In this document: positions 752 through 29,749 of the stretch, piece by piece
Layout: each line of letters opens with the position of its first letter
Numbering within the stretch: position 1 is the stretch's first letter
Assembly (NCBI GenBank): GCA_025980465.1
Contig: JAICXJ010000021.1
Span: 1 to 50,615, forward strand
Origin: Frankiales bacterium
GTDB lineage: Bacteria > Actinomycetota > Actinomycetes > JAFAQI01
Direction of reading: 5' to 3'
DNA length: 50,615 nucleotides
Position numbers and translations under genes: made by a program
The notes under the pieces: model-generated
What the model was told of the DNA's origin: nothing
Database searches by the model: none
Seen by the model: the letters and a program-made list of their open reading frames with translations, nothing else

Positions 752-795
752 TTGTGGAGCGGTAGCGGCGCTATCACACCGGTAGCGCTCCACAA
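752..795. repeat. 44-nt imperfect palindrome, left copy of locus A
   Basis: The left arm is TTGTGGAGCGGTAGCGG, then an 11-nt centre, then CGGTAGCGCTCCACAA. The outer 10 nt are inverted (TTGTGGAGCG / CGCTCCACAA), while the inner 8-mer CGGTAGCG is repeated directly in both arms. A second copy with almost identical arms but a different centre lies at 1823-1866, on the other side of the nuclease gene. This copy starts 6 nt past that gene's stop codon, so it could also act as its terminator hairpin, although no T tract follows. Confidence 0.85.
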
Positions 796-801
796 GCTGC
801 T

Positions 802-1746
802 CTAGCAGGAACCCCGCAACGGCTCCGGGAGGTCCTTCGGGCAGCGTACGCAGCGGCGAAACTGACCCGGCCAGCCTTCGTCCCGGAGTATCAGGGCCTG
901 CTGAATCATCGCGTCGCACGGGCGGTCGATCATGTCGGCCCATCCGTAGCGAAGATGTCGCAGCCGCTGTGCCTCGCTGCGGTTGTCCCGCTCCATGTCG
1001 CGCCACCGCTCGAGCGTGCCGTCATGCCCCAAGTGGCCGTCGAGTTCGATGTGCGTGCGGTATTCCTCAATCAGCACGTCGAGGTGCTCGACACCATTCG
1101 CCTTTCGCCTGAACTGTCGGGTTCCCATGGGCAGTCCGTGCAGTCGGCGCTGTTTCGCGTCGAGCAACTCCAGGACCGAGTGCGCCCCACGGGCAAGATC
1201 GGGAAGGGCATCGAGAACCGCCTGACGCCATCGGATCGACGGGAGTTCGACCAGCGCAGCCCGGATGCGGCCAGCGGTGGTTCGTCGTGAGCGAACGGCG
1301 TCGCCGACCACACCGAGCGCCGCCCGAGCCGACGGCATCTCCGCCAGAAGGTCGATGACGGTGCGTTCCACCGTGGTCCGGGCGGGGAAGCCCCGAACGT
1401 CGTCAGGTCGCCAAATACGGGAGCGATGAATTGTCAGGCCGCGCTGGGGTCGAATCCGGCGATCGAAGGGAATCGTGATGTGAATCGTGTCCGGCCGCGA
1501 GCGCAGCCCGTACGAATGCGCCGCGGTGGTGTGACTGAGTGCGGCGCCATCTCCGCCGTACCGCACGGCCGCGTGCAGCATTGCGGCGTAGGGGACCGGC
1601 CCACTGAAGGTGGCGTAGGTGCGGGGGTAAATCCGCTGCCAGCGACCCGACGTCACCATCCAGCGCACTCGGTCCGCCGAGAACCCAAGGTTCTCGAGGT
1701 CGTCGAGCGTGACTACCCCAGCGGTGTCCCCTGCAGCACGGATCAT
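802..1746 (-). CDS. AbiEi-like winged-helix protein with C-terminal DUF559/Vsr-like nuclease domain
   Basis: 314 aa. Residues about 8-45 (TLDDLENLGFSADRVRWMV then GRWQRIYPRTYA) match the AbiEi-type winged-helix domain that binds DNA in type IV toxin-antitoxin systems. The C-terminal third matches the DUF559/Vsr-like endonuclease fold: Glu193 in HSVLE, Asp223 in HLDVL and Glu234-x-Asp236-Gly in IELDG form a plausible PD-(D/E)XK metal site. No AbiEii toxin lies next to it, so it is a solitary gene rather than a toxin-antitoxin pair. It sits between LigD-like and glgE genes and is bracketed by two copies of one 44-nt palindrome. ATG 1746 is chosen because the conserved winged helix begins there; no strong ribosome site is visible. 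A longer reading frame upstream is antisense to glgE and is spurious. The fold assignment is family knowledge; nuclease activity and role are inferred. Confidence 0.8.
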   Translation of the reverse strand: MIRAAGDTAGVVTLDDLENLGFSADRVRWMVTSGRWQRIYPRTYATFSGPVPYAAMLHAAVRYGGDGAALSHTTAAHSYGLRSRPDTIHITIPFDRRIRPQRGLTIHRSRIWRPDDVRGFPARTTVERTVIDLLAEMPSARAALGVVGDAVRSRRTTAGRIRAALVELPSIRWRQAVLDALPDLARGAHSVLELLDAKQRRLHGLPMGTRQFRRKANGVEHLDVLIEEYRTHIELDGHLGHDGTLERWRDMERDNRSEAQRLRHLRYGWADMIDRPCDAMIQQALILRDEGWPGQFRRCVRCPKDLPEPLRGSC

Positions 1747-1795
1747 TGGCAAACGTTGCGGACGATGCTCTCGGCAGCACCCGCACAGCCGCACT

Positions 1796-1804
1796 TGTGG
1801 ATAA
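1796..1804 (-). other. Perfect DnaA-box-like 9-mer upstream of locus A nuclease gene
   Basis: The plus strand reads TGTGGATAA, the complement of TTATCCACA. It lies between the nuclease start codon (1746) and the right palindrome (1823). Similar 9-mers stand in the corresponding position at 29681-29689 and 49445-49453. Binding by DnaA is not shown and a chance match is possible. Confidence 0.4.
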
Positions 1805-1822
1805 CCGCGCGGGAATCTGGGG

Positions 1823-1866
1823 TTGTGGAGCGGTAGCGGTGTCGGGACCCCGGTAGCGCTCCACAG
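1823..1866. repeat. 44-nt imperfect palindrome, right copy of locus A
   Basis: This is the same 17-11-16 layout as 752-795. Arms agree at 32 of 33 positions in direct orientation; the 11-nt centre agrees at only 4. It lies between two divergent genes (nuclease start at 1746, glgE start at 1909), so no gene ends here and a terminator role is ruled out. It could be an operator for the winged-helix protein, or an element end. It is 42 nt upstream of the glgE start codon. Confidence 0.85.
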
Positions 1867-1908: not shown

Positions 1909-4005
<2,097 letters not shown>

Positions 4006-28694: not shown

Positions 28695-28706
28695 CCGACC
28701 AACGAG

Positions 28707-28750
28707 TTGTCAGCGTCACCGGGTGCCCGAGCACCCGCTGGTGCTGACAA
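28707..28750. repeat. 44-nt imperfect palindrome, left copy of locus B
   Basis: The ends are TTGTCAGC and GCTGACAA, and a strong inner hairpin is formed by CGGGTGC and GCACCCG. It shares length and the TTGT...ACAA ends with the locus A palindromes but not the inner arms. It overlaps the last 11 codons and the stop of the nuclease gene, and lies between convergent gene ends, so it could also stop transcription. A partner at 29698-29741 agrees at 34 of 44 positions. Confidence 0.85.
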
Positions 28751-29642
28751 GTCCAAGGGCGCGCCGGAGTTGGGCAACCGCGCGAGGGTCGTCGGAGTAG
28801 ATCGCGACGCTCGGGAAGCGCAACGTCGTGAGGCCGTCGAGTAGGGCGTCGTTGTCCTTGGCCGTGTCGGTCCAGCGGGTCGTCAGCGTCAGGTGGATTC
28901 CGCCGTCGACTTCGACATAGAGCACTCGTCCGTCCGGGAGCCGAAACGTCGCGTCGAGGTAGCGCCGCCGCCCTCCGCTGTCGAGCCGCACCTGCAACTG
29001 TGGCCGCGGAAAGTGGTGGCGTCGACACCAACGAAGGAACTCGACCTCGGACAGCGCCTGGTTCCCGCCATCAAGGTCGAGTAGCAAGGACCGGAGCAAC
29101 CGGCGATGCCGAATTGCGCCGGCCACAGCCAACTCAAGGAGCAGGTTGCCCGGGAGGGTCAGGCGCTGTTGCACCGGGGCCACCACGATGCGACTCGCCG
29201 TGAGGGGCTGCTTCGACCAGGCGGCCGCATCGATCGTCGAGCGGTCGAGGGAGGTACTCGGCGGGCCGCTACCGGTCCGGATGTCCGCCGGCCCGAACCG
29301 GCGTGACTCGTGGACCACGACGTTCACGCCCAAAACACCGAGAACCCGGGCGCCGCGACAGACGATGACATGCACATCCGCCGTCTCGAACCCGCGTACC
29401 TTCCACTGCGCCAGCGAGGTCAGACCGCAAGTCGCCGCCGGTCCAGCGGCACTGAGTACGACGGCCCAGCGCGCCTGCTCAGGTGTGAGTGGACCGTTGT
29501 GCGTGCACACCACGAGCTCGTTGAGCAAGACCCACCGGCCACCATCGAGCTGGGCCCGAAGCTGATCCGGGGTGACCGCCCAGTCCCGAAGTTGCGAGCG
29601 GGTGGCAATTCCCCGCTGGGCGGCAAGTGAACTCAGACGCAC
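28716..29642 (-). CDS. Winged-helix/DUF559 Vsr-like nuclease-domain protein, second locus
   Basis: 308 aa with the same layout as the gene at 802-1746 but very divergent in sequence. The N-terminal winged helix is ATRSQLRDWAVTPDQLRAQL then GRWVLLNELVV. The C-terminal nuclease-like domain has Glu in LSEVEF, Asp230 in YLDATFRL and Glu244-x-Asp246-Gly in VEVDGG, so the PD-(D/E)XK-type residues are kept. The end of the coding sequence (GLVSTSGCSGTR) lies inside the left palindrome. No toxin partner is present. It starts with GTG 29642, 55 nt downstream of the right palindrome, and follows the helicase gene on the same strand. Activity and biological role are inferred. Confidence 0.78.
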   Translation of the reverse strand: MRLSSLAAQRGIATRSQLRDWAVTPDQLRAQLDGGRWVLLNELVVCTHNGPLTPEQARWAVVLSAAGPAATCGLTSLAQWKVRGFETADVHVIVCRGARVLGVLGVNVVVHESRRFGPADIRTGSGPPSTSLDRSTIDAAAWSKQPLTASRIVVAPVQQRLTLPGNLLLELAVAGAIRHRRLLRSLLLDLDGGNQALSEVEFLRWCRRHHFPRPQLQVRLDSGGRRRYLDATFRLPDGRVLYVEVDGGIHLTLTTRWTDTAKDNDALLDGLTTLRFPSVAIYSDDPRAVAQLRRALGLVSTSGCSGTR

Positions 29643-29689: not shown

Positions 29690-29697
29690 GCCCGCAG

Positions 29698-29741
29698 TTG
29701 TCAGGACCAGCGGGTGCTATAGCCCCCGCTAGTGCTGACAG
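29698..29741. repeat. 44-nt imperfect palindrome, right copy of locus B
   Basis: It starts TTGTCAG and ends CTGACAG; the inner AGCGGG and CCCGCT pair. It agrees with 28707-28750 at 34 of 44 positions in either orientation because both are near-palindromes. When the left copy is inverted, 20 of the first 21 positions match, including ACCAGCGGGTGCT. It begins 8 nt after the helicase stop codon, so a terminator role is possible here. Like the right copy of locus A it ends in ACAG, while both left copies end in ACAA. Confidence 0.85.
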
Positions 29742-29749
29742 GTCGGCAG

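Follow-up and report, generated by a model that had tools for sequence, protein, structure and literature searches.

A gene whose predicted product joins an AbiEi-type DNA-binding module to a Vsr-like nuclease is bracketed by two copies of a 44-nt palindrome in a 50,615-nt stretch of Frankiales DNA (the window). Many homologs of this gene in other Actinomycetes are likewise bracketed, each by a palindrome pair specific to that gene, and solo copies of the gene's own palindrome are dispersed intergenically in most of the genomes sampled. We interpret the gene and its two palindromes as one unit of a palindrome-repeat system resembling REP/RAYT and run by the AbiEi-Vsr nuclease, a reading to which we assign a probability of about 0.65.

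A palindrome pair brackets a single gene in the window

The earlier note on this DNA had described paired 44-nt palindromes around one gene, the right-hand copy lying between divergent genes. The two palindromes were found at exactly those positions, one on each side of the gene, with near-identical arms, and the divergent arrangement was borne out as well. The unit comprises the following features:

752..795, no strand: downstream palindrome of the unit, with 17-nt arms and a 10-nt centre, 6 nt past the stop codon of the gene; the same family occurs at four other places in the genome
802..1746, minus strand: gene for a 314-aa protein with a predicted AbiEi-type DNA-binding module (residues 1-186) and a predicted Vsr/EDxHD-like nuclease domain (residues 188-292), from Pfam, PADLOC, AlphaFold and PDB matches
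1823..1866, no strand: upstream palindrome of the unit, placed between divergent genes and 77 nt ahead of the start codon

A symmetric 17-10-17 layout (arm-centre-arm) proved a better reading of the palindromes than 17-11-16; the arms of the two copies agree but for the last base, and the centres are unlike. Searching the 50.6-kb window for the arm TTGTGGAGCGGTAGCGG with up to three mismatches returned just these four arms (0.20 expected; four reached in 0 of 100 shuffles), and the palindromes are beyond chance. Folded as single-stranded DNA, they form strong hairpins of -19.0 and -18.3 kcal/mol (z -7.0 and -5.5), with two G-G mismatches in the stem that are common to both copies; a fully paired copy exists elsewhere in the host genome (L005:1079-1122). 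The gene is flanked by a LigD-like gene, which starts with GTG at 732 on the minus strand, and by glgE (ATG at 1909, plus strand), and no AbiEii nucleotidyltransferase toxin gene lies beside it.

Pattern scans and a covariance model revealed five copies of the palindrome in the 3.45-Mb host genome, namely the window pair, two on contig C66 and one on contig C102, so that three lie away from the gene. The end of C66 overlaps the start of the window, which places four copies within about 9 kb, around dcd and an FtsH-like gene, while the C102 copy sits between divergent amidohydrolase-like and membrane glycosyltransferase-like genes. Because most copies are away from the gene, the host genome by itself would allow the gene to be a bystander. 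An Rfam search with the palindromes matched no family. In one relative (G001) we observed two solo palindromes like the window family (L087:3976-4027 and L088:3960-4001), with arms GTTAGCGG and centre GCCAGAAC and no bracketed gene adjoining.

The gene product is predicted to combine an AbiEi-type module and a Vsr-like nuclease

The winged helix and Vsr-like nuclease that had been read from the window sequence were supported by structure prediction. An AlphaFold2 model of the protein, built on a 31-member alignment, reached a pLDDT of 92.8. Comparison of the model with PDB folds matched residues 1-186 to the AbiEi antitoxin 6y8q (Z 12.2 over 175 residues) and Rv2827c, and residues 188-292 to NGO0050 (3hrl, Z 11.2), I-Bth0305I (3r3p, Z 10.7) and Vsr (1cw0, Z 9.2). 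Sequence models agreed, with a weak match to Pfam AbiEi_4 and a PADLOC AbiEi match at 1e-18, and Pfam DUF559 (PF04480) was matched in 14 of the 31 homologs. The acidic and histidine residues of the nuclease domain (E193, D223, E234, D236, H241 and D250) are invariant in the alignment. The model gives high confidence to the prediction that this protein joins a Vsr-like nuclease to an AbiEi-type DNA-binding module. No plasmid-borne homolog was found at E 1e-15; one unannotated 'Bacteriophage sp.' metagenome scaffold carries a homolog at 29% identity.

Many homologs are bracketed by their own palindromes

Homologs were gathered by protein similarity alone, with palindromes ignored, giving 80 loci from named Actinomycetes that range from Frankiaceae MAGs to Jiangella, Gordonia, Microlunatus and Nocardioides; several of the genomes are fragmented MAGs. 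Upstream and downstream flanks were compared blindly, with swapped flanks and pseudo-genes of the same loci as controls. The flank-pair score exceeded the 99th percentile of swapped-flank controls for 46 of 78 homologs and reached at least 30 for 35 of them, versus 7 of 718 pseudo-genes. Hairpins scoring at least 12 were present in 38 and 37 of the 78 flanks on the two sides, versus none in shuffles.

Most homologs from the same family and class (34-57% identical) are flanked on each side by a 40-60-nt palindrome, and in Phytoactinopolyspora eight of nine fetched homologs are bracketed. Many distant homologs (25-34% identical), including a second one in the window, are also bracketed, as scored over wider flanks for which the control rate at a score of at least 30 is 4.6%. 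Some high scores in that comparison (L053, L063 and L066) stem from long loose alignments or ordinary duplication and were left out of the clean cases. For roughly 40% of homologs the flank test reveals no clear pair, and L069, the closest homolog (57% identical), has none. One palindrome is always upstream of the gene and the second comes directly after the stop codon. The AbiEi-Vsr family is the only gene family found bracketed, each member by its own palindrome. The proposal that gene and palindromes form a unit is supported: the earlier note would have been refuted by a lack of further copies near homologous genes in relatives, and homologs there are bracketed.

The second homolog in the window has these features:

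28705..28753, no strand: downstream palindrome of the second homolog; its flank score of 29.0, at about the 95th percentile of controls, is weaker on its own
28716..29640, minus strand: second, distant homolog, 26% identical; ends approximate, with the stop inside the downstream palindrome
29696..29744, no strand: upstream palindrome of the second homolog, with centre GCTATAGC

Its palindromes have tips near CTTGTCAG, and comparable tips occur beside homologs from further genomes in the family (L054, L055, L057 and L065), so the tip goes with the protein subfamily and not with the genome.

Arms are locus-specific and centers share a degenerate motif

Palindrome arms are alike within a locus and unrelated between loci. 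A search of relatives with the literal arm of the window, as the earlier note had recommended, matched nothing outside the host genome, because each gene has its own palindrome, whose sequence is not kept between genera; the further copies expected from that search do occur at the homologs of relatives, with arms specific to each locus in place of the shared literal sequence.

Centers had been thought free beside conserved arms. They do differ between the two window copies, but they are not wholly free, since a degenerate motif, about GYYATRRC, recurs over many loci with unlike arms. This pattern, first spotted by eye, occurs in 44 of 97 centers versus 6% of controls. Motif models trained on one half of the loci were scored on the other half, with symmetry-preserving shuffles as controls, and gave AUC values of 0.65-0.80 (p=0.002, six splits); run on related loci, the test is supportive and not conclusive. 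The perfect palindromes of P. limicola do not have this centre motif. Palindrome likeness tracks protein likeness by a Mantel test (r 0.31, p<0.0005; Spearman only 0.08), and the suggestion of coevolution rests on this test and on nearest neighbors, both of which are confounded by species relatedness.

Solo copies are dispersed and differ between congeners

When concatenated palindromes were compared with ten genomes, many extra matches appeared, almost only in the genome with the matching gene. Phytoactinopolyspora limicola stands out among 16 named genomes with about 40 copies, most of them 95-100% identical over 56 nt, and two Jiangella species have about 20 copies each; for some loci (the L084 type in G057 and the L076 type in G001) no dispersed copies were found. 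Of 40 solo copies examined, none is intragenic. Most adjoin gene 3′ ends, 17 being between convergent genes and 4 between divergent ones, and at many 3′ ends a simple ORF caller takes the palindrome's own TGA as the stop codon of the host gene. The P. limicola copies lie within variable host inverted repeats above chance (p=0.0002), and at L181 (L181:1187-1270) palindrome and host repeat together make an 84-nt perfect hairpin. At L174-L193 the palindromes stand midway in such repeats, an arrangement that insertion into terminator hairpins or extension by fold-back copying might produce. Host repeats of this kind were not seen around the palindromes of J. muralis, so they are not claimed to be general.

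Congeneric genomes differ in palindrome presence. We compared the 20 kb around the P. limicola unit with four congeners. At a first site, P. limicola has a palindrome, the congener G078 has one of a different family at the same position, and the three others have none. At a second, P. limicola and P. alkaliphila have palindromes of different types and the three others none. Palindrome type thus switches at fixed orthologous positions within Phytoactinopolyspora. At a third site, G078 carries palindrome-gene-palindrome, and P. alkaliphila has the same two neighbors with just the 14-nt CCCATGATCATGGG (L222:833-846) between them, as the earlier note's empty-site comparison had envisaged: a small palindrome in place of the unit. 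Overlapping the outer tips of the palindrome at TGATCA yields exactly this 14-mer, which may be a target or a scar; no other bare site occurs in the 255 kb examined. The gene was not found to be fixed and vertically inherited either: the region upstream of glgE contains no unit in four relatives of the window's family (G001, G003, G004 and G008), and the unit is therefore not an old fixed feature there. In P. limicola a segment of about 9 kb (L214:7571-16528) has palindromes at both ends and a synteny different from that in congeners, its rearrangement breakpoints coinciding with the palindromes.

These patterns bear on an alternative, a transcription-factor regulon, in which the gene encodes an AbiEi-like autorepressor and the palindromes serve as its static operators, two at the gene itself and the others at regulated genes. 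AbiEi antitoxins bind inverted repeats in their own promoters, one palindrome is always upstream of the gene, and the C102 copy lies between divergent genes, all as a regulon would have it. Against it stand the second copy directly past the stop codon, the preference of solo copies for 3′ ends and convergent gene pairs, and the invariant nuclease residues. Moreover, the 56-nt palindrome, with some 40 nearly identical copies in one species that congeners lack or replace by another type, fits copying and not an operator of ordinary size. We therefore consider a regulon unlikely.

Strict homing is a further alternative, in which the nuclease cuts a gene-less palindrome and recombination with a palindrome-gene-palindrome allele copies the gene in, so that solo palindromes would be old targets or decayed units and not products. 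The C-terminal domain resembles in fold the homing endonuclease I-Bth0305I most closely, the type switches at fixed positions suit it, and so does the 14-nt palindrome of P. alkaliphila at the site of the G078 unit, but that single bare site may equally be a deletion scar. Homing alone does not account for some 40 solo palindromes, nearly identical to one another, at positions that are empty in relatives, and we give it a low probability.

A proposed palindrome-repeat system run by the nuclease

In the palindrome-repeat system that we favor, the AbiEi module would recognize the arms of its own palindrome, and the Vsr-like domain would nick or cut that palindrome close to the shared centre motif GYYATRRC, most likely when the DNA is extruded into a hairpin or cruciform. 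Through repair or replication of the broken DNA, the palindrome would be copied to new sites, often gene 3′ ends, or alternatively a resident palindrome would be turned into the cell's own type. The gene between two palindromes would occasionally be copied with them, and the upstream palindrome is probably also an operator for autoregulation. Mobilization of the palindromes by the protein is what we infer from these patterns. Since Vsr-type nucleases are without strand-transfer chemistry, placement at new sites would need host repair; Vsr chemistry does not explain that step, which is the main gap in the scheme.

The logic akin to RAYT/REP that the earlier note had suggested gains support from the bracketing and from the genome-specific dispersed copies. 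As in REP/RAYT systems (REPtrons, REPINs; PMC3733652, PMC3116915, PMC8266576), short intergenic palindromes are genome-specific and dispersed, and matching copies flank one dedicated enzyme gene. Unlike in those systems, the enzyme is an AbiEi-Vsr nuclease and not an HUH/Y1 tyrosine transposase, the palindromes are longer (40-60 nt), and the GTAG or CGTC tetranucleotide is absent from the palindrome foot (window copies, 20 P. limicola and 20 J. muralis copies). The REP-like size, palindromy and intergenic placing of the repeats could suggest a RAYT/IS200-type Y1 transposase spreading them in trans, with the nuclease gene a passenger between two copies. A search for PF01797, however, gave no match in 12 palindrome-bearing genomes and did match control genomes, which contradicts this reading for those 12; together with the missing foot tetranucleotide and the restriction of bracketing to the AbiEi-Vsr family, each gene with its own palindrome, it makes a trans-acting transposase very improbable. 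That the palindromes are ordinary terminators whose likeness across the gene is chance, as the many copies at gene 3′ ends might suggest, is contradicted by flank statistics far above the swapped and pseudo-gene controls, by the presence of a copy on the upstream side, which in the window separates divergent genes, and by solo copies repeating the same sequence through the genome, and we regard it as highly improbable. On inspection, integron attC sites seem unlikely: no GTTRRRY cores were seen and only one gene type is bracketed.

The N-terminal 186 residues share the AbiEi fold with AbiE type IV toxin-antitoxin systems, from which the window gene differs in having no AbiEii partner, an extra nuclease domain, and palindromes on both sides and dispersed. 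The C-terminal catalytic fold and its conserved acidic and histidine residues are those of Vsr and of Vsr-like (EDxHD) homing endonucleases such as I-Bth0305I. Unlike homing endonuclease genes, the gene is not in an intron, an intein or a split gene (the window gene and its counterparts in the fetched loci inspected closely are intergenic), its nuclease domain is fused to an AbiEi module, and what it targets seems to be a repeated palindrome. DUF559 proteins (PF04480; NGO0050, 3hrl) have the same nuclease domain by fold, and by Pfam in the 14 homologs mentioned above; the open literature yielded no description of bracketing or dispersed palindromes for them. Nor did open-access full text yield a palindrome system of AbiEi-Vsr genes, although an earlier description may exist in subscription papers or preprints.

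Actinobacterial genomes commonly encode AbiEi-Vsr proteins, whose only model matches are to AbiEi antitoxins or DUF559. We think it somewhat probable that such fusions serve as the enzymes of a second class of mobile system based on palindromic repeats, one that evolved independently and is widespread in Actinomycetes. An antitoxin-derived domain would read gene-specific arms, and a homing-endonuclease-like nuclease, acting at a shared centre motif, would copy palindromes to new sites and switch resident ones to its own type. If so, they would be the engines of a repeat system shaping intergenic DNA, and the logic of REP/RAYT would have arisen a second time with an unrelated enzyme that has no strand-transfer chemistry. 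The recent bursts in P. limicola and Jiangella would then offer a directly testable system for the multiplication of short bacterial palindromes, a matter unsettled even for REPs.

Beside the unit, the C-terminal part of the neighboring glgE (about 3650-3745 of the window) contains an in-frame tandem repeat coding LSTIGP/PPTIGP units, which lies between the catalytic and C-terminal parts of GlgE.
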